Origin: Haloechinothrix halophila YIM 93223
GTDB lineage: Bacteria; Actinomycetota; Actinomycetes; Mycobacteriales; Pseudonocardiaceae
Length of the DNA: 64,000 bases
Reading direction: 5' to 3'
NCBI RefSeq assembly: GCF_000504245.1
Contig: NZ_KI632509.1
Location: 4,925,502 to 4,989,501 of the forward strand
How positions within the stretch are numbered: the first letter of the stretch is position 1; each line of letters opens with the position of its first letter. Made by a program: the position numbers and the translations under genes. Shown in pieces: positions 33,903 through 46,541 of this stretch. The notes beneath the pieces were generated by a model, which was given only the letters and a program-made list of their open reading frames with translations, searched no databases and was not told the DNA's origin.

Positions 33903-34463
33903 TCACCCCGCGCGATAGAAGTTCGTGACGATGGTCGTTCTCCGCCCCGCGGTGAGTGGTTCGACAGAGTGGACTTGCCTGCCGCCGATCACGACGAGCT
34001 TGTCGCTCGCGGGCTGTATCCGTGCGCGGACGGTTCCCGAATCATCGTGAAGCACGAGTGCGCCGCCTACTGCGTTCTCGACCTGGGCGTAGTAGAGCGT
34101 TGTCACGATCGGGCTTGGTCCGCCTTCGCCGTCGCGGTGCGGCATCTGCGTGGGCGGCTCGTCGGGGTTGCCGTCCATGCGTACCGGGAACACCTGCGGG
34201 ACGAGGTCCTCGGGCGGCGGGAGCGTGGCGGGCAGTGCGGCGGTGACCTCGTCGTAGACGACGCTCGCGACAAGTACCGAGAGCTGCCTCATGGCGGGTT
34301 GCCGATGCATGTCGGACTTGGCCAGCTGCCACATCCTGCCAGATGTCGTGCGGCCGAGCGCATCCGAGCGCTGCCATGCGAGGTCAGGCGATCCGAGCAG
34401 TTGCAGGACATCTCCTCGACGCTTCGCGCCCAGGAAGTCCGCAACTTGGTGCAGTGCCTTCAT
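33903..34463 (-). CDS. 2-oxoglutarate/Fe(II) oxygenase
   Basis: 186 residues. The HxD motif MPHRDGEGG (His109, Asp111) and distal HSVEPLTAGRRTTIVTNFY (His165, Arg174) give the full metal and 2-oxoglutarate set of PKHD/prolyl-4-hydroxylase-type enzymes, and ALVLHD and VIGGRQVH fit core strands. It is short for the family but complete. Divergent from 34526-35299 and close to the RiPP operon, so it could hydroxylate a peptide there, although it is not in the same transcript. Confidence 0.7.
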   Translation of the reverse strand: MKALHQVADFLGAKRRGDVLQLLGSPDLAWQRSDALGRTTSGRMWQLAKSDMHRQPAMRQLSVLVASVVYDEVTAALPATLPPPEDLVPQVFPVRMDGNPDEPPTQMPHRDGEGGPSPIVTTLYYAQVENAVGGALVLHDDSGTVRARIQPASDKLVVIGGRQVHSVEPLTAGRRTTIVTNFYRAG

Positions 34464-34525
34464 CAGTACTTCCGGTGGTCGAGGTGTGGCGCGATGTGAT
34501 CGTGCGGTGCTCTAGGGTCGCGGCT

Positions 34526-35299
34526 GTGGGTCGTTACTTTCTGGTCGCCGACAGCCATGGCTGGCATCACCCGGTACACCGGACCGACATGAAGTTCGAC
34601 TGTGAGCGGGCAGCCGCCGACGGTCAGCTCATGCGGTGGACCTCCTCGATGCGCACTGACCAGCATGCAGTCCTTGTGAGGCAATGGATGCTTTCCGAGG
34701 ATGATCGTCCACGGTCTGACGAATGGGTTCCGGCCGAATGGCTCCTGCGGGTGTGGCAGAGCCCCGCGATGGCTGCAGTGGAGGCCAGCCGTGTCGGGTT
34801 GGGCATCCGCTTGTTCGAGCTGGACGCGAAGCCGGTGCTGTTGGCGCGGTCGATACCGGTCGTCATCCCGGAGCTGGGTCTCGCTGGCGTTGACGAGTTC
34901 CGCGTCGCCCGGGAGGTGCCTCAGTGGTGGCTGCTGGGTCCGTGTGGACGCGAGGTGCGTGCGCTGCTGAAGCAGTTTCAAGCTCTGGCCGCCGAGCACG
35001 GGCAAGAACCGGTGACCGTCGATGACGGCACTGACAGTCTGCGCAAGCAGGTGCTGGACGTTGTCGACGCGACCGCGCGCGTCGGTGCGTACGGCATCGT
35101 GAGAGCCGTCATCGGGGAGCTTGACGGCGCTGACGAGTCGTATCGCCAACTCGCGCTTGGTGCGGCGCTGGGATTCGTCGTAAAAGACGTGTGGCCGGAG
35201 GCGTCCCGGCTGTACCGGGCTTGGGTTGAGCAATTCGGCTTGCCCGACATCGCGGCCGTTGTTGACGAAGGTGGCCTTCCGTATCAGAGCGGGCCGTGA
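34526..35299 (+). CDS. hypothetical protein at the edge of the RiPP locus
   Basis: 257 residues from GTG 34526, with AGGG upstream; the longer in-frame reading lies opposite the divergent oxygenase gene and is rejected. Mixed alpha/beta (YFLVADSHGWHHPVHRTDMK, later WWLLGPCGREVRALLKQFQA). No family recognised. It is divergent from the oxygenase and convergent with the RiPP operon end at 35331, so its link to the pathway is only positional. Confidence 0.5.
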   Translation: MGRYFLVADSHGWHHPVHRTDMKFDCERAAADGQLMRWTSSMRTDQHAVLVRQWMLSEDDRPRSDEWVPAEWLLRVWQSPAMAAVEASRVGLGIRLFELDAKPVLLARSIPVVIPELGLAGVDEFRVAREVPQWWLLGPCGREVRALLKQFQALAAEHGQEPVTVDDGTDSLRKQVLDVVDATARVGAYGIVRAVIGELDGADESYRQLALGAALGFVVKDVWPEASRLYRAWVEQFGLPDIAAVVDEGGLPYQSGP

Positions 35300-35330
35300 G
35301 CACTCGGCTGGCGAGCGCGCGAGATGCGGG

Positions 35331-36014
35331 TCAGCCATCGACTATGAGCCGCCCATCGCGGTGAGTGACGGTTACTCCGGAAAGCGCCGCAAGCAGTGCC
35401 GCATGTTCTTCGCGTAGTTCGGGTGCGCTGCGCCCGGATGTGCGTCGGAGCGCCGACACGAGCACCTCGGCGCCGAACATGCCGAGGCCCACCCGGAACG
35501 GCTTCGCCTGGTGATGGGCGACCCTGGCGACGCAGTCGAGAATCCGCTCGTGCTGCTCGCCGAGGAGGTTGGCCCGGATGGTGTTGTGCAAGGTATCCGC
35601 GCCGGTTCGTGCCTGACGTCCGTCGTCGGCCGGTAGGTGCGCGACCATCTCGGGTAGCGCCTCTCGCGCATCGGCCAGCACGTCCGACCAGATTGAAATG
35701 CCACTGTTCCAGAGCGTTTCGCTGGCGAGGGTGAGCGAGCGTAGCGCCGTAAAGGCCGCCATGAGGCTGGTCATCGCGGTGAGCCGCGCCATCGCGTCCC
35801 CCGGCTCGTTCTGCAGGACCGCGTGGATGACCGCGTGCGCCTGGGTCAGTCTGGACCGGGTCTGGTCATCGGCGGTGATGATGTTGCTGTCTGTCCAGGT
35901 GACCGTGATCGGCTGGCCACCAGGGTTCCAGAGCGCGTACAGGGCGTCGCGGATGCTAAGTGTCCGTTCGAAGTCGGCGTCGTCGGACAGCGGAGAGCCA
36001 TGTCCGTCAGTCAT
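35331..36014 (-). CDS. helical protein, last gene of the RiPP operon
   Basis: 227 residues, almost entirely helical (FERTLSIRDALYALWNPGGQ, LTAMTSLMAAFTALRSLTLA, FRVGLGMFGAEVLVSALRR). No catalytic motif or membrane segment is clear. It overlaps the methyltransferase gene by 8 bases, so it is cotranslated with the pathway. Possible roles are binding partner or immunity; neither is shown. Confidence 0.55.
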   Translation of the reverse strand: MTDGHGSPLSDDADFERTLSIRDALYALWNPGGQPITVTWTDSNIITADDQTRSRLTQAHAVIHAVLQNEPGDAMARLTAMTSLMAAFTALRSLTLASETLWNSGISIWSDVLADAREALPEMVAHLPADDGRQARTGADTLHNTIRANLLGEQHERILDCVARVAHHQAKPFRVGLGMFGAEVLVSALRRTSGRSAPELREEHAALLAALSGVTVTHRDGRLIVDG

Positions 36015-37440
36015 CGGTTTCTGTCCTCCTGACGAGGAGCCCGAGTTCGTAGAGCCGTTTGGCCATCGTTGTCAGCACCTCCGCGCCCACCGCCGAAGAC
36101 GGCGGCGGCACCTGGTTGGCGACGAGGTCCAGCAGGCGTGGGCCGACCTCCACCTCGAATTGAATGCCACGCGTCGAGCGCAAGACCTGTTCGCGAGTGA
36201 CGACGCCATGTTCGCGAACCGCGCTGATGGACGCGATTTCATGGTCAGAATGAAGGCGGAGATCTTCAGCAGCCGGTTGTCCATGTCGGTCGGCGTCCAG
36301 CGCGCGCATTAGGTCGCGCAGCTGCCCCCGGTCGAGTTGCTGCCCAGCGAGGGACACGCGCTCAGACCGGAACACCGCCTGCGGCGCGTAGGCCGGAGTG
36401 AGCACCACGATGCCGTAGGCGAGTTCGCGCACGTCGTGGCGACGATAGAAGTCGAGCCATGTCCGTACCGTCCGCTCAAGCGCCGCTTCGTCGGCATAGT
36501 GGGCATTCCAACGCACGGCATTGTCCAGCGGCGTTCGCCGCGCGTAGATCAACGCCAGCCCGTCGCATCGCGCTCGGTGTGCGATGGCGCGCGGTTCCCG
36601 TGCAGGATCGGTCGGATCGCTAACTGCCCAGCTGGTCAGGCACACGAGGAGCCCACCTGTCGCCAGGAGTCTTGGGGCTTCAGCCAGGACGCGGGTGCCG
36701 ACGTGATCCGATCCCGGTGGCCCGTCGCGGTAGAGTACCGACGTCTCGGGGGAGACCAGGTATGGCGGGTTGCTGACGATGAGGTCGAACGGCTTCTCCT
36801 CGTCGAGCCCGCTGGTGACGTCGGCGACGGTGAATTCGACGTTCGTCACGCCGTTGAGAGCGGCGTTGAACTCGGCGAACGTTACGGCACGGGGAGAGAC
36901 GTCCACGCCGAGCGCGGTATCGGAGTGGGCAGCGAGTTGGAGAGCGTGTGCTCCCGCGCCGGTACCGATGTCGAGGCTCCTGCTCACAGCCGTTCGGGGG
37001 ATGGCGCGTGCGAGCACATGGGTCGGGCCGTGCGGGCTCTCGACGACATCGCTGGTCACATGTTGGGAGTCTTCGTTGTGCAGGTCGCTTGCAAGAAACA
37101 GATCGTCGAAGGGCGTCAGTCTGACCAGTGGTGAGAGCCGGTCCGTCGACTGCGTGGCGAGGCTCGCGTCTACTAGCAAGCTCACCAGCTCTTCAGGGAA
37201 GGAACCATCGATGTCCGTCGGCTGGCCAAGTAGTAGCAGCTGAGCGAGGGACCGCAGCGAGCCGGGCGCGTTCGCTGAAATCCGCGCCGCACTCGGTGCA
37301 TGACCAACGGGAGGCCATGCCGACGAGTCTGGAACCGCGAGGAGGTCACGCAGGTCGGCTTCTTTGTAGCCAGACTTCCGCAGTACGGCGGGCAGGCGCC
37401 CGATGTCCGTGGTTATCCGAGGCGTAGGGCGCGTCGTCAT
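36007..37440 (-). CDS. class I SAM methyltransferase of the RiPP operon
   Basis: 477 residues from ATG 37440 (ATGA overlap upstream). The N-terminal helical domain (LRKSGYKEADLRDLL) precedes a Rossmann core with SLDIGTGAGAHALQLAAH and the NPPY motif VSNPPYLVSPETSVLY. A C-terminal winged-helix-like domain follows. The architecture resembles the roughly 500-residue PrmC/RsmC-like methyltransferases found as housekeeping genes in actinobacteria. Here it is inside a RiPP operon and probably modifies the peptide, for example at a side-chain amide or the terminus. The N-methylated atom cannot be predicted. Confidence 0.75.
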   Translation of the reverse strand: MTTRPTPRITTDIGRLPAVLRKSGYKEADLRDLLAVPDSSAWPPVGHAPSAARISANAPGSLRSLAQLLLLGQPTDIDGSFPEELVSLLVDASLATQSTDRLSPLVRLTPFDDLFLASDLHNEDSQHVTSDVVESPHGPTHVLARAIPRTAVSRSLDIGTGAGAHALQLAAHSDTALGVDVSPRAVTFAEFNAALNGVTNVEFTVADVTSGLDEEKPFDLIVSNPPYLVSPETSVLYRDGPPGSDHVGTRVLAEAPRLLATGGLLVCLTSWAVSDPTDPAREPRAIAHRARCDGLALIYARRTPLDNAVRWNAHYADEAALERTVRTWLDFYRRHDVRELAYGIVVLTPAYAPQAVFRSERVSLAGQQLDRGQLRDLMRALDADRHGQPAAEDLRLHSDHEIASISAVREHGVVTREQVLRSTRGIQFEVEVGPRLLDLVANQVPPPSSAVGAEVLTTMAKRLYELGLLVRRTETDD

Positions 37441-38141
37441 GCTGACTCGTCGCCCTCGCGCGGCAGGACGTCGAGGCTTTGGCTCTGTTGCGGGGAAACC
37501 AGATGGAACCAGCCAAGAATTTGACCTTTGTGGACCTCGACGGTGGACCCGTTGCGGGGTGCGCGTGCGATTACATTCAGCGCTGCCACGCCGTAGGTGG
37601 TTCCGTCGATATCCTTGCTCCGGGCGGGAACGAAGTACTCCAACCCGGACATGATGTCCAAGTCTGCAGGCGCCACGCCCGCGTCGTCCACGAGTTGCCG
37701 ATTCGGGAGCGGCCCCTGGTAGAGGAAGTGCCCGCGCGGGAAGAACACAACGATGCCTGTGCTGATCTTCACGTATTCCGAGCCCGCGATCCAGCTCGCG
37801 ACGAAACCGGATTCGGTGCCGTGCCAACTATCGCCTCCCACGCGGACCGCGCCGTAGGCGCTGGTGTCGTCGCGGAAGTCCCGCCACTTGCGGGCAGGGT
37901 CCTCGCGTTGCAGCGTGACTCGGCCGGGTGCCCTGACGACATGCCCGAATCGGGAGATCACCTGCACCGGGCCGCAGTCGGACGGGCGGACTTCACGACC
38001 GGAGACGGTGAATGCGCGTTGTAGTTCGGTGCCGGCCAGCCTCTGTTCGCCGGAAGCGCGTCGCCCGTATGCGACGTCGAGGGGTTCCGGTGGGTATGCA
38101 CCGGCTTCCTTGGACTTGACGTTGTCGAAGGCCCAGTACAT
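37437..38141 (-). CDS. DUF6065-like protein of the RiPP operon
   Basis: 234 residues, beta-rich. The order GFVASWIAGSEYVKISTGIV, FFPRGHFLYQGPLPNRQLVD, then LNVIARAP and VHKGQILGWFHLVSP recalls DUF6065 proteins, cupin-like and linked to RiPP loci. This is pattern memory, not a search. No catalytic metal triad is obvious. It starts 5 bases after the YcaO stop and overlaps the methyltransferase gene by four bases. Confidence 0.45.
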   Translation of the reverse strand: MYWAFDNVKSKEAGAYPPEPLDVAYGRRASGEQRLAGTELQRAFTVSGREVRPSDCGPVQVISRFGHVVRAPGRVTLQREDPARKWRDFRDDTSAYGAVRVGGDSWHGTESGFVASWIAGSEYVKISTGIVVFFPRGHFLYQGPLPNRQLVDDAGVAPADLDIMSGLEYFVPARSKDIDGTTYGVAALNVIARAPRNGSTVEVHKGQILGWFHLVSPQQSQSLDVLPREGDESA

Positions 38142-38146
38142 GAATG

Positions 38147-39397
38147 TCAGCCCCTCCCCACCTGTTCACGCAGGCGTGGCCCGAGGCTCGACCAGCCGCC
38201 GGTGACATGCCAGGTTTCTGCATCCGGGACAACGACCCGCACGACGGAGATGCCTGGCCAGGCGGGGAAGGCCACGTAAGCGACATCAGGTAGTCCTGCT
38301 TGCTCGCAGCGTGCGAGCAAGCCGTCCAAACCAGGCTCGACGTCCTGTTCGGAGTATGAGACTGCGCGGGCGCCCGGTGTGGCAAGCCAGTGGCCGGTTG
38401 GTGCCTCGTCCAGTCGTTGTTTCTCCACTTCGTGCCGGTCTTCACGCGCGCCCTGGAGGTCCGTGGCGCGAGTCTGCGCGAGTTCCAGGAGGGCGCTGTC
38501 GAGAGCGCTCGCGCTGCTCGTTCGGACGGCGTACCCGGCGCAGCCGAGATGCCGGGTCAGGTCGGCCTGTTGCACGGCGGCCACGCCGAAGGCAGGTAGC
38601 TCAAAGTCGTTGGGCAGCAGCTTCACGACCAGATCCAGCCCAGCTGCCTCGTACCGCTTCGCGATCTCCTGTGCCGAACCGGGCAGGCTGTCGTGCTGGA
38701 TGGTCAGCGCGAGGTCGACGTTGTCCTCGTAGCCGCCGAGCACCGAGGTCGAGAGTCCGAACCGCTTCGCTATCGCGGTCAGGTAGCGGTAACCGAGGTG
38801 AGAGGCGCGGACCTCGGCGCATGAGACGACGTCGCGTTCGATGACTTCGGCCAGTCCGTGGATGAGGGCATCGTCGAGGTCGAAGGACGCGGCAAGGCCG
38901 TTCGATGTGGACAGCATGAAGGGGCTCGCCGGTGCCTCGGCAGGACGGCGTCCGTTGAAGCACAGATCCGCCGGCACCATGACTCTGCCCGGCGTGCCCG
39001 TGAGTTTCGTGGCCTCGACCCACGCCTGCGGATCGTCGGTGCGAACGCTGTCGCGGCGTCGATACGTGAACCGGTCCGGACTCCAGACCTCGTGGGTGCG
39101 TTCCAGCGACACGAGCGTGTCGGTTACCCACGGTGTGCCAGATGACCAGAGCGCTCCGCTGCGTTCCAGGCATTCCATGATCGCAGTGACACGAGCCTGT
39201 TCCTGGCTGCGGCCTTTACCGCTGTAGACCCAAATGACATCCGTGGTCGCGGGCTTGACTGCGCTGGCGGTCGGCACGCCTGGGGTGTCCAGGCCGGTGG
39301 TGTCTGCCAGACGGCTGATGCCGAAGTCGTCGAGCCTCGCCACGAGATCCTGCTCCCAGACGTGCCACTGCTCCTCGGTCGGTTGGGCGCCTGTCAT
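38147..39397 (-). CDS. YcaO-domain enzyme (predicted backbone thioamidation)
   Basis: 416 residues. ATP-dependent amide-backbone activation. ATP/Mg motifs are visible: SGKGRSQEQARVTAIMECLE, SNGLAASFDLDDALIHGLAE followed by VIERD, and TRATDLQGARED. The C-terminus has no Pro-rich tail of the azoline-forming type. Pairing with TfuA (ATGA overlap, 39394-39397) and absence of any E1-like or ocin-ThiF partner point to thioamide formation rather than azole formation. Substrate is presumably the peptide at 41594-41875. Confidence 0.85.
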   Translation of the reverse strand: MTGAQPTEEQWHVWEQDLVARLDDFGISRLADTTGLDTPGVPTASAVKPATTDVIWVYSGKGRSQEQARVTAIMECLERSGALWSSGTPWVTDTLVSLERTHEVWSPDRFTYRRRDSVRTDDPQAWVEATKLTGTPGRVMVPADLCFNGRRPAEAPASPFMLSTSNGLAASFDLDDALIHGLAEVIERDVVSCAEVRASHLGYRYLTAIAKRFGLSTSVLGGYEDNVDLALTIQHDSLPGSAQEIAKRYEAAGLDLVVKLLPNDFELPAFGVAAVQQADLTRHLGCAGYAVRTSSASALDSALLELAQTRATDLQGAREDRHEVEKQRLDEAPTGHWLATPGARAVSYSEQDVEPGLDGLLARCEQAGLPDVAYVAFPAWPGISVVRVVVPDAETWHVTGGWSSLGPRLREQVGRG

Positions 39398-40041
39398 CGC
39401 GCCCCCGGGGATGCGGTCAAGCGGCCAATGAGCGTTTCGGCATCGTGGCGCTTGACGTCGGTGGCCAGCAGCTGCTCCACGGCTACCGGCTTCAAGCCGA
39501 CATCGATGGCCAGCTCGTGGCAGCGACGGCGTGTCCGTTGGGCGAAATGCAGGTCACGCAGCCGGGCCAGAAGCATCTTGGCCTGATGGTCAGTCGTGTA
39601 GCCCGAAACAACGAGTTGGTCGAGTCCGAATCGGATGTTGGCCATGAACAGCGCTGTGGCCTCGCCGGTGCGCGGGTCGAGTGGCGCGACCAGTTCGTCG
39701 TCGTAGGTGATCGTGCCGTCGACGATCCGTTCGTAGACCCAACCGTGGCCGCACATGCCGTGGTGACGCAGCTCGGCGGCGCGCAGCGCGCCGAGGCTGG
39801 AGCAGCCCCACACTTCGTATCCACGCTCGATCAGGTCGAACACCTCGGTTGGCGAGGGTGGATGCCGTTGGATCATGTAGCCGTCGACGAGCACGATCCG
39901 GGTGCCGGGCGGTTGGTCGAGCTCAGCCAGGTCACCGCGCCCGGCGGGTGGGCACCAGATGACATCGCCCTGAACCTGACGTCGCACCGACGCGGATAGC
40001 GACGGGCCGACGAAAATGACGGCCCGAGATTCCAAAGTCAC
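39394..40041 (-). CDS. TfuA-like protein, YcaO partner
   Basis: 215 residues from GTG 40041. Core features are AVIFVGPSLSASVRRQVQGD near the start, IVLVDGYMIQRHPPSPTEVF, YEVWGCSSLGALRAAELRHH and GMCGHGWVYERIVDGTI, all typical of the TfuA family. In thioamide RiPPs and in methyl-coenzyme M reductase modification TfuA assists YcaO, probably in sulfur delivery. It overlaps the ycaO gene by four bases and follows the dioxygenase gene after 15 bases. Confidence 0.85.
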   Translation of the reverse strand: MTLESRAVIFVGPSLSASVRRQVQGDVIWCPPAGRGDLAELDQPPGTRIVLVDGYMIQRHPPSPTEVFDLIERGYEVWGCSSLGALRAAELRHHGMCGHGWVYERIVDGTITYDDELVAPLDPRTGEATALFMANIRFGLDQLVVSGYTTDHQAKMLLARLRDLHFAQRTRRRCHELAIDVGLKPVAVEQLLATDVKRHDAETLIGRLTASPGAR

Positions 40042-40056
40042 TAGCTCGCGTCCGTT

Positions 40057-40794
40057 CTACAGCTCAAGCGGGTCGATCTTCTGCCGGTAGGGCGAGCGCC
40101 GGAAGTTCAGTGCGAACGCCGCGCGTGGTTTCGCGCTTTCCATCGGACCGGAGCGGTGCACGGCATACGAGTGGTGCACGACCGCTCCGCCAGCGGGGAC
40201 CGGCGCGGAGACGAACGACAAGGCGGAGGCGTCCACCAGCTCAGCGCCGAAGTTCTGCACCTCGGAGGCACGGTGCTTAAGCAGGTCACCCGGTTCGGGC
40301 TGCGAGGTGGCGTATTGCAGGACCCCATCCTCCTCGGTGACGTCGGTCAGAGCGATCCAGAAGGTCACCGCGAGTTCGTCCCCGAAGTGGTCGCGGTAGA
40401 AGATCTGGTCCTGGTGCGGTGGCGTGGCCTCCGACCGCGCCTCGGGTTTGGCGAAGTACTCGGTCAGGAACGGGACGCACCGCGACTCCAGCAGGACCTC
40501 CGCCGCTCGCACCAGGCTGGGAACGCGGGTCAGATCGAAGAGTAGGTCGCTGTGGCGGTCCAGGTAGTGCATACTCAGCACCCGGCCATCTGTGTCTCGC
40601 GAGATCACCGTGCCCTCGGCGTGCTCGGACAAGTCCGCCGACAGGCGGTCAGCCTCGCCCCGCAGGGCCGTGAGGAGGGCGGGCTCGGCGAATCGGTCGA
40701 GCACTCTGTGGCCCGCCGCGAACACGGACTTGCGGATATCGCCAAGCTCGGCCGCGTTGGGCAGGTAGAGGTCGTCAGTCTTTGGCTGGAACAT
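40057..40794 (-). CDS. phytanoyl-CoA dioxygenase-family oxygenase
   Basis: 245 residues. PPHQDQIFY supplies His127 and Asp129 of the Fe(II) site, and VVHHSYAVHRSG with KPRAAFALNF supplies the distal His and Arg for 2-oxoglutarate. Length and motif order fit the PhyH family. In this operon it would hydroxylate the modified peptide. Its first 20 bases overlap the end of the methylase gene, implying coupled translation. Confidence 0.8.
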   Translation of the reverse strand: MFQPKTDDLYLPNAAELGDIRKSVFAAGHRVLDRFAEPALLTALRGEADRLSADLSEHAEGTVISRDTDGRVLSMHYLDRHSDLLFDLTRVPSLVRAAEVLLESRCVPFLTEYFAKPEARSEATPPHQDQIFYRDHFGDELAVTFWIALTDVTEEDGVLQYATSQPEPGDLLKHRASEVQNFGAELVDASALSFVSAPVPAGGAVVHHSYAVHRSGPMESAKPRAAFALNFRRSPYRQKIDPLEL

Positions 40795-41506
40795 AGAGCG
40801 TCGGCCTCCTCCAGAGTTCCAGATCCGCCGTTGCCAGCTCGCTCAGCGCCACCTCGGTGATTGAACTTGCCTCCAAGACGTGGGCGGACGACCACACGAC
40901 TTGTACCCGATGGTCGGCGCCGTACAGCGGAGCGAGCAGGTCAATCAGCGGGCGCAGGGCCTGACGGTCGGGATCGCGGTCGATGACCGCGCGATTCAAT
41001 GTGGAGGCGAGCTGGAACAACAGCAGCGGTACCTGCGGGTTGGGCGACCATCCTGCCTTGAGCAGCGTCGTCGTGTCGAAGATCTGCACCCCGTAGCCGT
41101 AGTCGATCTGGAGATCGCACAGCAGCGTGTCGAACGAGCTTACGGCCGGTAGCACCGACACCCGCAGGCCGTGCTGCTCCGCCAGTTCCAGCGTGTACTC
41201 GGTCGCGCTGACCAGGAACAACGGGTGGCCGTGAACCAGGAACGCGACAGGCGCGTCTTCCAACGCGGCGTCTACCAGACGCTGAGAGATTTGACGATAC
41301 ACATCGTCGCGCACGCTCTGACCGTCGTAGAGCGGCGCGAGATCTTCGACCTCGGGGCAGTGCTCGCGAACGGCGTCCAGCACGCCGTCGTCCGCGTGGA
41401 GCACAAACACCCGCCGACACGCGCGTAGTGCCTGCGCTGTCTCGACCGTGAGGTGAAGCGCCCCTTTGATCCCGCTTCCCAGCAAGTAGATGGAGGTCGT
41501 ACGCAA
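40775..41506 (-). CDS. TP-methylase-fold enzyme, borosin-type backbone N-methyltransferase candidate
   Basis: 243 residues. YLLGSGIKGALHLTVETAQA opens a tetrapyrrole-methylase fold, and LVHGHPLFLVSATEYTLELA and LPAVSSFDTLLCDLQIDYGY match the motif order of borosin alpha-N-methyltransferases rather than cobalamin enzymes. Tyr60, Arg66 and Tyr70 have the same spacing as the catalytic Tyr66, Arg72 and Tyr76 that I recall for OphMA. The residue at the Tyr98 position is His92. There is no fused core peptide, so it would be a split-type enzyme acting on the separate 93-residue peptide encoded just upstream. SAM methylation of peptide backbone amides is inferred. Confidence 0.75.
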   Translation of the reverse strand: MRTTSIYLLGSGIKGALHLTVETAQALRACRRVFVLHADDGVLDAVREHCPEVEDLAPLYDGQSVRDDVYRQISQRLVDAALEDAPVAFLVHGHPLFLVSATEYTLELAEQHGLRVSVLPAVSSFDTLLCDLQIDYGYGVQIFDTTTLLKAGWSPNPQVPLLLFQLASTLNRAVIDRDPDRQALRPLIDLLAPLYGADHRVQVVWSSAHVLEASSITEVALSELATADLELWRRPTLYVPAKD

Positions 41507-41593
41507 ACCCGGTGGCCCCTAGTTCCAGAAGTTTGGACATGACGACCCGGTAGAGCGCGAACGGGTCGCACCCCACCGGGCCATAAGAGCAGG

Positions 41594-41875
41594 TCAGACG
41601 GCGGGCTCGACGTCCTCGCCAGTCCAGAACTTGTTGCCGTTGTCCATCAGGAAAGCCCGGAAACGACGAACGTCGACCCCCCACTCTTCCAACGCGACGC
41701 GCCGCATGGTGCTCAACGCCGTCTTCTCGTCGTCGGTCAAGTCCGAGTCCTCGAGCGCGGCCTCAGGGTCCGCGAGCAGCTGCTCACGGAACGCGATGTC
41801 ATCAGCGGCGCGCGCCAGGATTGCCTCCACGCGCTGTTTGGCGTTGTCGTCGAGCTGTGGAACAGACGAAGTCAC
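41594..41875 (-). CDS. candidate RiPP precursor peptide
   Basis: 93 residues from GTG 41875, with a GGAGGT core 5 bases upstream. Residues about 12-60 are helical (RVEAILARAADDIAFREQLL, then ADPEAALEDSDLTDDEKTAL), like Nif11/NHLP leaders or the helical binding domain of split borosin precursors. The last 25 or so residues (FRAFLMDNGNKFWTGEDVEP plus AV) are the likely core. There are no Cys and few Ser/Thr, so lanthionine or azole chemistry is unlikely, while backbone thioamides and N-methyl groups remain possible. First gene of the operon, 87 bases before the methylase. Confidence 0.7.
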   Translation of the reverse strand: MTSSVPQLDDNAKQRVEAILARAADDIAFREQLLADPEAALEDSDLTDDEKTALSTMRRVALEEWGVDVRRFRAFLMDNGNKFWTGEDVEPAV

Positions 41876-42128
41876 GGCATACCTCCGAGTGTGCGGGGTC
41901 TTCCCAGTACCAAGATCACCGTATCGAGGGCATCGCGACCGCTATAGGTGCAGATGGGTGGCATCGGCACTACAAACAGTGAGGTTAGCGACGGGTGACT
42001 CGCGACGAGCCTGGCCCGGCTGCATGGGCTCACGACGCGCGTCGGGCACCACGGTACCCTCAGGAAGCCCCTATAACGGTTCTGGCCGTCGCTGACGGCT
42101 GCGCTCAACCCAACGATCTGGATGGACG
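41876..42128. promoter_or_regulatory. divergent promoter region between precursor and AspRS genes
   Basis: 253 bases holding the starts of two opposite transcripts, so it must contain both promoters. A TATAGC hexamer (minus strand, 41940-41945) is a possible -10 for the precursor operon, but no well-spaced -35 was found. GGGTGGCATCGGC near 41955 only partly resembles a T-box sequence. Shared control of the synthetase and peptide genes is plausible. Confidence 0.4.
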
Positions 42129-43904
42129 ATGCACCGGTACCGGTCTCACACCTGCGGCGAGCTACGCGCAACGGACGTCAACACAGACGTCCGCCTGTCG
42201 GGATGGCTGCACAATCGGCGAGATCTCGGTGGCGTTCTGTTCATCGACCTACGCGACAACTCCGGCGTCGTGCAGCTCGTCGTGCGGTCCGACTCGCCGG
42301 CCTACGAGGCCCTGGGCAGTCTGCCGAAGGAGACAGTGCTGCGCGCCGACGGGCGAGTCCTGCGCCGTCTCGCGGAAAACGTCAATCCGGAGATTCCCAC
42401 GGGCGAGATCGAGGTCCAGGTCGGCGAGATCGAGGTCCTGGGCAGCGCGGATCCGCTCCCGTTCAGCGTCTTCCCGGAGGAACACGTCGGTGAGGAGACC
42501 CGGCTCACCTACCGCTTCCTCGACCTGCGTCGTCAGCGGATGCACAACAACATCCTGTTGCGCTCTGCGGTAATCCGGAGTATTCGCGACAAGATGAACG
42601 CTCGGGGGTTCCTGGAGCTTCAGACGCCGATCCTGTCCGCGACCAGCCCCGAAGGCGCACGTGACTTCCTCGTGCCCTCCCGGTTGCACCCGGGCAAGTT
42701 CTACGCGCTGCCGCAGGCGCCACAGCAGTTCAAGCAACTGCTCATGGTCTCGGGCTTCGACCGCTACTTCCAGATCGCCCCGTGCTTCCGCGACGAAGAC
42801 AGCCGCGCTGACCGCTCGCCCGGCGAGTTCTACCAGCTCGATGTCGAGATGAGCTTCGCCGAGCAGGAAGACGTCTTCCAGACCATCGAACAGGTCTTCG
42901 CCGAGCTGTTCGCCGAGTTCGCACCCAACAGCGAGACCACCTCGCCGTTCCCGCGCATCAGCTACCGCGACGCCATGCTGCGCTACGGCACGGACAAGCC
43001 GGACCTGCGAGCCAAGCTCGAACTCGTCGATGTCTCCGGCATCTTTGCCGACAGCGAATTCCGTGCATTCGCGGGCAAGCACGTCCGCGCGTTGCCCATA
43101 CCGAACTGTGGCGACCAGCCGCGATCCTTCTTCGACCAGATGGGCGACTTCGCCGTCGAACACGGCGCCAAGGGCTTGGCATGGGTACGGATCGATGAAC
43201 AGGGCAAGTTCACCGGCCCTATCGCGAAGTTCCTGACCGAGAACGACACTCAGCAGCTCGTCGCCGAGGTCAAGGGCGAGCCCGGGACCGCGATCTTCTT
43301 CGGCGCAGGGGACGAAGACGACGTCGCCAAGATCATGAGCGAAGTGCGCGTCGAAGCAGCCAAGCGCGCTGGCCTGTTCGAGGACAACGCCTTCCGCTTC
43401 TGCTGGATCGTCGACTTCCCCATGTACGAGAAGGCTGACGACGGCACCGTCGACTTCAGCCACAATCCCTTCTCGATGCCGCAAGGCGGACTCGACGCAC
43501 TCCGCACCCAAACACCTCTCGACATCCTCGCCTGGCAGTACGACATCGTCTGCAACGGTATCGAGCTGTCGTCAGGTGCCGTCCGGAACCACAGTCCCGA
43601 GATCATGTACGAAGCGTTCAGGATCGCCGGGTACAACAAGGAACAGGTCGACGCACAGTTCGGCGGCATGATCCGGGCATTCCACTACGGCGCGCCGCCG
43701 CACGCAGGTATCGCACCCGGCGTCGACCGCATCGTCATGCTCCTCGCCGACGAGCCGAACATCCGCGAGACGATCGCGTTCCCGCTCAACGGCAACGCCC
43801 AGGATCTCCTCATGGGCGCTCCATCAGTCGTCGAAGAAGCGCGGTTGAAGGAGCTGAACCTCAGCCTTCGCAAGCCACCAGCCAAGGACGGCCCCGCAAG
43901 CTGA
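42129..43904 (+). CDS. aspS: aspartyl-tRNA synthetase, proteobacterial-like, beside the RiPP operon
   Basis: 591 residues. Charges tRNA(Asp) with aspartate. It has an OB-fold anticodon domain (VRLSGWLHNRRDLGGVLFID), class II motif 2 (FRDEDSRADRSPGEFYQLD), a GAD-type insert (about 285-420) and motif 3 (GVDRIVMLLADEP). NILLRSAVI, HPGKFYALPQAPQQFKQLLM and NHSPEIMY follow the alphaproteobacterial type as I remember it. Actinobacterial enzymes usually read RRDHGGVIF, ALPQSPQLF and IHRRD at these places. This suggests a transferred second copy, possibly resistant to the RiPP product. The promoter is shared divergently with the precursor gene. A hairpin terminator follows. Confidence 0.88.
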   Translation: MHRYRSHTCGELRATDVNTDVRLSGWLHNRRDLGGVLFIDLRDNSGVVQLVVRSDSPAYEALGSLPKETVLRADGRVLRRLAENVNPEIPTGEIEVQVGEIEVLGSADPLPFSVFPEEHVGEETRLTYRFLDLRRQRMHNNILLRSAVIRSIRDKMNARGFLELQTPILSATSPEGARDFLVPSRLHPGKFYALPQAPQQFKQLLMVSGFDRYFQIAPCFRDEDSRADRSPGEFYQLDVEMSFAEQEDVFQTIEQVFAELFAEFAPNSETTSPFPRISYRDAMLRYGTDKPDLRAKLELVDVSGIFADSEFRAFAGKHVRALPIPNCGDQPRSFFDQMGDFAVEHGAKGLAWVRIDEQGKFTGPIAKFLTENDTQQLVAEVKGEPGTAIFFGAGDEDDVAKIMSEVRVEAAKRAGLFEDNAFRFCWIVDFPMYEKADDGTVDFSHNPFSMPQGGLDALRTQTPLDILAWQYDIVCNGIELSSGAVRNHSPEIMYEAFRIAGYNKEQVDAQFGGMIRAFHYGAPPHAGIAPGVDRIVMLLADEPNIRETIAFPLNGNAQDLLMGAPSVVEEARLKELNLSLRKPPAKDGPAS

Positions 43905-45417: not shown

Positions 45418-45484
45418 ACGAGAAGCTCCTCATTCAACTTGGCGTTCCCATGGGTAACAGAGCCTGGGGCTGCGGGAGGTCGTG

Positions 45485-45952
45485 ATGGCGCAACAGGCGC
45501 CGGATGGCCGGAGCTTGGCCGACAAGCTCAACCACTTGTTCGCGACAAGGCTGCGCGCGGACGGCAAGGAACACAGCAACGAGCAGGTAGCAGCGGCCAT
45601 CCGGGACAGCGGGGTGGTGAAGACGATCTCGCAGAGCTACATCTGGCAGCTGCGCAAGGGCACCAAGGACAACCCGACCTATCGGCATCTGAAGGGTCTG
45701 GCCGACTTCTTCGACGTGCCCGTCAGCTACTTCTTCGATGACGAGGTCACCGATCGCATCGACGAGAAGCTTGCCGCGATGCAGGAGGAGCGTCGCCGCA
45801 TGGTCGGCCTCGCCGACAGCGGCGAGGCCCAGGTGATGGCGATGCGCGCAGGCGAGTTGTCACCGCAGGGCAGGCGGCAGGTGATGGATCTGCTCGACGT
45901 GGTCTACCGGCTCGAGCAGGCCGAACGTGGTGCGGGATCGGACGAGTCGTGA
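45485..45952 (+). CDS. XRE-family regulator (EspR-like)
   Basis: 155 residues from ATG 45485, with GGGAGG upstream. An N-terminal HTH (NEQVAAAIRDSGVVKTISQS, then YIWQLRKGTKDNPTYRHLKG) and LADFFDVPVSYFFDDE are typical of EspR-type proteins, and a C-terminal helix may dimerise. It is followed by an ImmA/IrrE protease gene, the usual repressor-protease pairing in which the protease relieves repression. First gene of the operon to 48876. Confidence 0.75.
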   Translation: MAQQAPDGRSLADKLNHLFATRLRADGKEHSNEQVAAAIRDSGVVKTISQSYIWQLRKGTKDNPTYRHLKGLADFFDVPVSYFFDDEVTDRIDEKLAAMQEERRRMVGLADSGEAQVMAMRAGELSPQGRRQVMDLLDVVYRLEQAERGAGSDES

Positions 45953-46001
45953 TTACTCTAGAGGGTCACTGCGATCGCATTCCGTAAGGAGGGCGAGTGA
46001 G

Positions 46002-46541
46002 TTGGAGGAACGGCAGCTCAGGCGACGATGCCGGCGCTTGCTCAACGACCTCGGCATCCAACCACCGCTTGATGTCACCGAACTGTGCCGCAGGGTGGGT
46101 GAGCTTCGGAGGCGACCGATCCGGTTGGTTCCGCACCCGATCCCGGTGCCAGGACCGTTCGGCGCCTGGATCGCCACCAAGACCGCCGACTACGTCCTCT
46201 ACCAGCAGGAAACCACCAAATCCCACCAGGACCACATCATCCTGCACGAGCTGGGACACATCCTCGCGGGCCATCACGGCGACGACACCGACGACGGCCT
46301 GATGGACGCCCTCTACCCCGGCACCGAGCCGGCAGCTCTGCGCGAGCAGTACCCAGACGCCATCCGCAGGGCGTTGCGGCGTACGTCCTACGACACCGAG
46401 CAAGAGCGCGAAGCCGAGACCGTGGCCACCATCATCCTCGAATGGGCCTCCGTGCTCGACCGAGTGACCCCACCACGCTCACCCGACATCGCCGCCGACC
46501 GCATCGGTGTGGCACTCAACGATCGGCTCGGCTGGCTGTGA
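46002..46541 (+). CDS. ImmA/IrrE-family metallopeptidase
   Basis: 179 residues from TTG 46002, chosen because AAGGAGGG (45986-45993) lies 8 bases upstream. The zinc motif HELGHILAGHH is complete, and a later EREAETVATIILEW supplies the third-ligand region. ImmA/IrrE proteases cleave partner XRE repressors; the partner here is probably the product of 45485-45952. The stop overlaps the next GTG start (GTGA, 46538-46541). Confidence 0.8.
   Translation: MEERQLRRRCRRLLNDLGIQPPLDVTELCRRVGELRRRPIRLVPHPIPVPGPFGAWIATKTADYVLYQQETTKSHQDHIILHELGHILAGHHGDDTDDGLMDALYPGTEPAALREQYPDAIRRALRRTSYDTEQEREAETVATIILEWASVLDRVTPPRSPDIAADRIGVALNDRLGWL

Follow-up and report, generated by a model that had tools for sequence, protein, structure and literature searches.

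What does an operon produce that sets a borosin-type methyltransferase and a YcaO–TfuA pair beside one small gene, and why does a second gene for aspartyl-tRNA synthetase (AspRS) stand next to it? The operon lies in a 64,000-nucleotide stretch of the genome of Haloechinothrix halophila YIM 93223 (the window, whose numbering is used throughout). An earlier note on this DNA placed it at 35331–41875 and proposed a pathway for a ribosomally synthesised and post-translationally modified peptide (RiPP) in which backbone thioamidation and backbone N-methylation are combined. We found that the same genes recur in three other genera, always next to an extra aspS, and we argue that the product may be a doubly backbone-modified peptide directed at AspRS.

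The genes from the precursor to P0008 all lie on the minus strand and form one operon, with intergenic gaps of 87, -20, 15, -4, 5, -4 and -8 bases in the direction of transcription. Profile scans found the families expected of them (E-values of 6e-21 for TP_methylase, PF00590, 3e-22 for PhyH, 6e-25 for TfuA, 2e-49 for YcaO and 2e-15 for the methyltransferase model MTS), which bears out the coupled operon described in the earlier note. A scan of a species collection with two eight-residue patterns, which gives a lower bound on the number of loci, matched 28 stretches, three of them encoding relatives of the borosin-type methyltransferase; the protein is 86% identical in Amycolatopsis orientalis DSM 43388, 84% in Prauserella endophytica and 77% in Nocardia wallacei. 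Four loci in four genera were thus found in total. The Amycolatopsis and Prauserella loci carry all ten of P0001–P0010 in unchanged order. At the Nocardia locus we found the precursor, methyltransferase, PhyH, TfuA, YcaO, P0006 and, directly behind it, P0009, making eight genes with aspS; P0007, P0008 and P0010 were not found at this locus, where the contig stops after another 1.7 kb and the search did not extend to the remainder of the genome. Since three other genera carry this gene set, it is not a chance association. Among 100 genomes of the family, P0006 is present in two, the window's own and one (G822) taken as the Prauserella endophytica genome.

The extra aspS is adjacent to the precursor gene and divergent from it at all four loci. 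It is also the only one of the ten flanking window genes that recurs, being present at all three other loci, and the remaining nine are at none of them in the stretches compared. The conserved unit is therefore 33903–43904. The earlier boundaries were too narrow: they left out a second 2-oxoglutarate (2OG)-Fe(II) oxygenase, P0009, which recurs at all three other loci, the opposite-strand gene P0010, which recurs at two, and aspS. Both P0009 and the extra AspRS, which hints at a target, had been overlooked. By eye, three of the four upstream regions have short stretches in common close to the start of the precursor.

The proposed precursor matches NF038399 (the Os1348 family of the NHLP clan) over residues 14–66 with 48.9 bits against a cut-off of 40 (the earlier note had described a precursor with a helical leader), and a conserved small gene adjoins the methylase at all three close homologous loci, a check that had been suggested there. 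In the six pairwise comparisons among the four genomes, codons 58–81 show no amino-acid change and 4–9 synonymous codon changes per comparison; codons 1–57 show 3 to 17 non-synonymous changes, and codons 82–92 show none among the window, Amycolatopsis and Prauserella and six against Nocardia. The invariant block begins within the Os1348 domain match and extends to Asn81; judged from this pattern, residues 58–81 may be the core, a docking surface, or both. Residues 58–93 contain one Thr and no Ser or Cys, in agreement with the earlier description of a core devoid of Cys and poor in Ser and Thr. The AlphaFold model of the precursor has five helices (predicted local distance difference test, pLDDT, 74), and the leader of SonA, the precursor of a split borosin, is a five-helix bundle (PMC8429565). 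Foldseek searches with this model returned gallate dioxygenase, Os1348, NHLP peptides and SonA chains, none of them significantly: no E-value was below 0.29, and those of the SonA chains were above 7. Different enzymes have been proposed to bind different surfaces of one folded NHLP leader (PMC12455567), and the methyltransferase and YcaO could therefore share the leader. Across 397 genomes of the order, a precursor search gave, beyond the window's own genome, a single weak match (E=4e-6). A weak relative of the precursor from a different family of the order (L047, G044:C38:49170-49352; 38% identity over about 60 residues) lies inside a 373-residue open frame that is possibly a fused precursor.

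Near-freezing of the C-terminal half between genera is unusual for toxin cores, and family scans recognised no dedicated protease or exporter in P0001–P0011. These observations would fit a modified 93-residue protein that stays in the cell as a regulatory or cofactor-like component and is not a secreted antibiotic. A weapon-like product is suggested instead by the spare AspRS and by a patchy distribution, with four loci in all that belong to different families, and we regard the internal role as very improbable.

The borosin-type METHYLTRANSFERASE matched 26 PDB sequences at E<=0.01. The best 25 are borosin alpha-N-methyltransferases (MroMA, dbOphM, OphA, OphM and SonM) and a precorrin methylase comes last (E=0.0076); SonM is a distant relative (E=8e-11). 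Because the protein ends without a fused core, it belongs to the split type. Residues Y60, R66 and Y70 do not vary across seven aligned relatives, and MroMA has Tyr, Arg and Tyr at the matching positions. In SonM, the substitutions Y58F, R67K and Y71F lower catalytic efficiency roughly 14- to 98-fold, and R67A loses nearly all activity (PMC8429565); these three positions may correspond to Y60, R66 and Y70. The methyltransferase had matches in 4 of the 397 genomes of the order, those outside its own genome being no better than 2e-14, and in 37 of 396 genomes of the phylum at E<=1e-3, its own included (best other, 3e-12). More distant borosin relatives in 17 plasmid records, only 22–29% identical, were considered and discarded as a guide to the cluster; at six such plasmid loci there was no match to TfuA, YcaO, P0006, PhyH or P0009. 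Two plasmid sets are worth recording in their own right. A Haloarcula sp. CBA1115 plasmid (L036, 7728-10879) carries a split borosin-like set in an archaeon, composed of a small gene whose leader is of the Os1348 type (36 bits, below the cut-off of 40), a borosin-type methyltransferase and a prolyl oligopeptidase. A Bradyrhizobium sp. 155 plasmid (L034, 5751-10763) encodes a borosin-type methyltransferase, a small gene, a second methyltransferase, a TauD-like dioxygenase and a prolyl oligopeptidase, a candidate for another oxidised borosin.

The genes tfuA and ycaO adjoin each other in the window and at all three other loci, and both products score above the Pfam cut-offs (PF07812 and PF02624). 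Among solved structures, YcaO is closest to MJ1094 and to another chain named YcaO; TruD, MusD and LynD come after these. No ThiF/E1 domain, the cyclodehydratase partner, was matched in P0001–P0011, the motif PxPxP is absent from the YcaO sequence, and the stretches SGKGRSQ.QARVTAIMECLER, NGLAA, HGLAEVIERD and ELAQTRATDLQGAREDR are conserved in the four genomes. On these grounds thioamidation is the favoured activity of the YcaO–TfuA pair, and the combination of backbone N-methylation with thioamidation seems to us probable. Gene content, intact catalytic motifs and four-genome conservation uphold this part of the earlier proposal; its DUF6065 label did not survive (see below), and the second methyltransferase is missing from what was found at the Nocardia locus. 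It could be argued that only one of the two modifications is made, that is, that the product is an ordinary TfuA–YcaO thioamidated RiPP or an ordinary split borosin and the other enzyme is inactive or acts elsewhere. Both classes are known on their own from the literature (PMC6511847, PMC8429565), TfuA falls below a curated cut-off, and neither YcaO nor TfuA is encoded at the six plasmid loci that have distant borosin-type methyltransferases. However, in four genomes both enzymes retain intact motifs and are encoded in the same operon as the one precursor, which makes a single modification unlikely.

Two further enzymes may oxidise the peptide. PhyH keeps HQD and a distal HH.Y..HR, and P0009 keeps HxD, H and R in the four genomes, the pattern of iron ligands in this fold. 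An earlier figure of thioamidated clusters already includes a phytanoyl-CoA dioxygenase gene (PMC8120280). The second METHYLTRANSFERASE, P0007, has an NPPY motif, and its nearest PDB relative is a gentamicin N-methyltransferase. A PADLOC scan of P0001, P0006–P0008 and P0010 matched residues 146-281 of P0007, and only these, to mads_2 (E=4e-24, 83 bits), which models the methyltransferase of the MADS defence system, and P0008 faintly to a Cas7 model (E=0.004); P0001, P0006 and P0010 gave no match. We considered and dropped a defence-system reading: P0007 is part of a peptide-modifying operon and was not found at the Nocardia locus, and the mads_2 match was accordingly read as a common methyltransferase domain shared between systems. 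P0007 may still have a role other than peptide modification. Family scans found no family of note in P0006, P0008 or P0010. For P0006 the label "DUF6065-like" was abandoned, as the PF19541 model finds nothing at the locus and the four members, which are 64–73% identical, have no Pfam match up to E=10. Its AlphaFold model is not usable (pLDDT 48), and the best Foldseek match, a dUTPase at E 0.4, was given no weight. The true start of P0010 is probably later than annotated, because homology begins near residue 61.

We then compared the AspRS of the cluster with those of other genomes. All four cluster genomes encode a further full-length AspRS, 45–47% identical to P0011, and in the window's genome both genes lie on the same single contig, the other copy at G000:C1:2448938-2450698. 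Both family genomes with P0006 have both types of AspRS. Of the 98 without it (the sense of "without the cluster" here, the other cluster proteins not having been sought in all 98), 97 have only the ordinary enzyme, 44–48% identical to P0011, and one (G814) has only a copy 79% identical. At the cut-off used, the P0011 type was found in 1 of 298 genomes of the order, its own, and in 9 of 296 genomes of the phylum, its own and eight of the genus g88, which is probably Streptomyces. In all four g88 genomes tested the P0011 type is the sole AspRS, with 72–74% identity to the cluster copy.

In a tree of 54 rows the four cluster copies and that of G814 form one clade (support 100/99), which joins g88 (97/88) and then the alphaproteobacterial AspRS together with one long-branched clostridial row; the cluster type is split from the family's own AspRS with support of 100/100. 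The tree program flags long branches (Vescimonas, E. coli, Lachnospira and others), the placement of which carries no weight. The cluster AspRS is thus, by sequence, of foreign type and clusters with the only AspRS found in g88, a different actinobacterial genus. A first tree had suggested an alphaproteobacterial donor (an Azospirillum plasmid copy, 58% identical), an assignment revised in view of the 72–74% identity of g88. The AspRS of the eight g88 genomes (L109–L116) is itself nearer the alphaproteobacterial type than the type of the window's family. In G814 the sole AspRS gene (L097, G814:C25:41500-61400) has relA, apt and a peptidyl-prolyl isomerase gene as neighbours by eye, which we presume, given mycobacterial gene order, to mark the housekeeping locus; since the foreign-type gene sits at this apparent aspS locus, it seems to have replaced the native one. 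Also adjoining it, at about 7448-10631 of L097, are genes that by eye resemble those of a MoaD/ThiS-like carrier and, in two frames, of a ThiF/MoeB-like adenylating enzyme; they may be the remnant of a further system directed at AspRS.

Self-resistance by target duplication is typically signalled by an arrangement such as this, in which four genera retain an intact, foreign-type AspRS alongside a peptide cluster while still having another AspRS: the extra copy of an essential gene lies in the cluster in 4/4 cases and is missing from 97 of the 98 family genomes without P0006. One could argue that aspS is a passenger, kept by accident after the cluster moved from a g88-type organism in which it stood beside the housekeeping aspS; such a donor would carry the gene at hand, as the sole AspRS of g88 is of this type (4/4 tested). 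In three g88 genomes, though, none of the ten cluster proteins was found within 15–16 kb around aspS, and an unneeded copy would be expected to decay, yet in four genera that also have another AspRS this one is still intact and next to the cluster. We consider a passenger gene to have a rather small chance of being the explanation.

Another way to account for the extra AspRS is as a helper in biosynthesis of the hybrid RiPP: a tRNA-dependent enzyme that attaches or activates a residue would draw its Asp-tRNA from it. The extra AspRS is constant in all four clusters, as is P0006, which has no assigned function and so could be such an enzyme. On the other hand, no known tRNA-dependent enzyme family was matched among P0001–P0010, Asp-tRNA is already made by the host, and the foreign type fits insensitivity better than supply; a helper role therefore appears distinctly unlikely. 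That AspRS is the target of the product is slightly favoured in our view.

From what was observed (the gene content, the motifs, the conservation, the second AspRS and its foreign type) we infer every chemical step, the release of the peptide, its target and the resistance as follows. The helical leader of the precursor (residues about 10–66) would dock the methyltransferase, which would N-methylate backbone amides in the C-terminal part, and YcaO–TfuA would convert one or more C-terminal backbone amides to thioamides. PhyH and P0009 may hydroxylate or desaturate side chains, and P0007 may add a further methyl group in the Amycolatopsis, Prauserella and window versions. The released peptide would block AspRS, and the divergent aspS would provide an insensitive enzyme of foreign type. 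The estimates for chemistry and target rest on the same evidence of a peptide product, and for this reason we hold the case for the whole, a thioamidated, N-methylated and oxidised inhibitor of AspRS with the cluster aspS as self-resistance gene, to be evenly balanced. A more far-reaching version is a tentative suggestion that we rate as somewhat doubtful: a new RiPP class with thioamides, N-methyl groups and hydroxylations on one peptide that blocks AspRS, in which the Asp/Asn-rich residues 78–81 may become a mimic of aspartyl-adenylate and the foreign AspRS is the resistance gene. If the interpretation is true, two rare backbone changes are joined on one genetically encoded scaffold. The proposed self-resistance gene also makes target and mechanism directly testable, by setting the housekeeping against the cluster AspRS, and it offers a search rule, namely a spare foreign tRNA synthetase adjoining a borosin or YcaO gene.

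Several observations weigh against this interpretation. As discussed above, the extra AspRS could possibly serve to supply Asp-tRNA. TfuA reaches 120 bits against NF033432, the McrA-type equivalog with a cut-off of 235, and is thus a relative and not that equivalog. The Nocardia precursor, at 37.5 bits, is below the NF038399 cut-off of 40, and of four small genes adjoining other borosin-type methyltransferases two gave 36 and 15.8 bits with this model and two were unmatched. Seven AspRS positions had looked special, as an active-site signature of resistance, and the signature was rejected: S170 and T172, near the presumed aspartate-binding loop, were lost once g88 was added. Fourteen positions are unique to the four cluster copies, among them P66 and T387 of the seven, and we draw no claim from them; alignments with g88 show no resistance-linked residue in the cluster AspRS. 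Nor is the foreign type exclusive to the cluster, since G814 has it without P0006 and as its only AspRS. Finally, as the sole AspRS of g88 is of this type, the cluster type is by ancestry a working housekeeping enzyme and not a specialised resistant form.

Features of the conserved unit, in window coordinates
Feature	Position	Strand	Basis
P0009, second 2OG-Fe(II) oxygenase	33903..34463	-	PF13640 33.3 bits, cut-off 27; HxD...H...R kept in 4; in all four clusters
P0010, no assigned function	34343..35299	+	at 2/3 other loci, not found at Nocardia locus
P0008, no assigned function	35331..36014	-	family scan; not found at Nocardia locus
P0007, second methyltransferase, Rossmann type, NPPY motif	36007..37440	-	not found at Nocardia locus
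P0006, conserved protein, 234 aa	37437..38141	-	64-73% identical; in all four clusters
YcaO	38147..39397	-	PF02624 and TIGR00702 above cut-off
TfuA	39394..40041	-	PF07812; NF033432 120 bits vs cut-off 235
PhyH-family 2OG-Fe(II) dioxygenase	40057..40794	-	PF05721; HQD and VVHHSYAVHR unchanged in four genomes
Borosin-type alpha-N-methyltransferase, split form, 243 aa, TTG start	40775..41506	-	PDB relatives; Y60, R66, Y70 invariant
Putative precursor peptide, 93 aa, Os1348/NHLP-type leader, predicted helical	41594..41875	-	NF038399 above cut-off; 90/90/75% identical at three other loci
Precursor codons 58-81, identical protein in four genomes; candidate core or central part of it	41633..41704	-	0 non-synonymous, 4-9 synonymous differences per pair
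Divergent intergenic region, aspS/precursor gene, 253 bases	41876..42128	.	coordinates
aspS (P0011, 591 aa), second, foreign-type AspRS	42129..43904	+	tRNA-synt_2, GAD and anticodon domains

Outside the conserved unit, at 45482–46541 of the window, a small regulator-like gene precedes one whose sequence carries an HELGH metallopeptidase-like motif (by eye of the ImmA type, with no Pfam match at E<=0.001).

How does the cluster compare with known systems? No natural borosin/thioamide hybrid was among the matches listed in the open literature, a scope that did not include the borosin survey of Lee et al. 2024, and there is no sign of this gene set in the accessible text of two mining papers, their supplements being outside the scope. 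One report mentions a borosin binding domain in passing, and its accessible text has no TfuA or thioamide (PMC12710340); the nearest in wording, on engineered thioamidated biarylitides, has in its accessible text no mention of borosins, and backbone N-methylation only twice, in the reference list (PMC12951456). As most subscription literature lay outside the search, the novelty of the hybrid cluster is provisional.

The split borosins, exemplified by SonM–SonA of Shewanella, resemble our locus in having a stand-alone methyltransferase whose neighbour is a small precursor, with a leader that is predicted here to be helical, and in the active-site Tyr/Arg/Tyr (PMC8429565). Unlike SonM–SonA, which is distant in sequence, our cluster also links YcaO–TfuA, two 2OG oxygenases, P0006 and an AspRS. 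We know of no thioamide in SonA. The TfuA–YcaO thioamidated RiPPs (thioamitides, thiovarsolins) and the McrA thioglycine enzymes likewise have adjacent tfuA and ycaO, and the parallel extends to the unmatched ThiF/E1 and to MJ1094 as the closest solved YcaO; our cluster differs from these RiPPs in its borosin methyltransferase, its Os1348-type leader and its residues 58–93 without Cys or Ser and with one Thr. The Os1348 cluster of Pseudomonas sp. Os17 centres on an antibiotic-related small protein of the same leader family, NF038399, whose structure (6lk7) is among the Foldseek matches, but the main text of the paper on it does not mention YcaO, TfuA or a methyltransferase (PMC7726476). Pythonamide, a proteusin, is a RiPP with both backbone N-methylation and 2OG-Fe(II) hydroxylation; its methyltransferase, however, is of the FkbM family and not a TP-methylase, and the accessible text does not mention thioamides (PMC9505594).

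As to the target, microcin C and its relatives are peptide antibiotics that yield an inhibitor of AspRS, and microcin C demonstrates that this enzyme can be the target of a RiPP (PMC7136475). They are the only AspRS-targeting RiPPs among the matches listed. Microcin C releases an aspartyl-adenylate analogue, whereas in our cluster no adenylating (ThiF-type) enzyme was matched. To our knowledge, immunity to microcin C does not rest on a spare AspRS. If our interpretation holds, the cluster would represent a RiPP route to AspRS beside that of microcin C.

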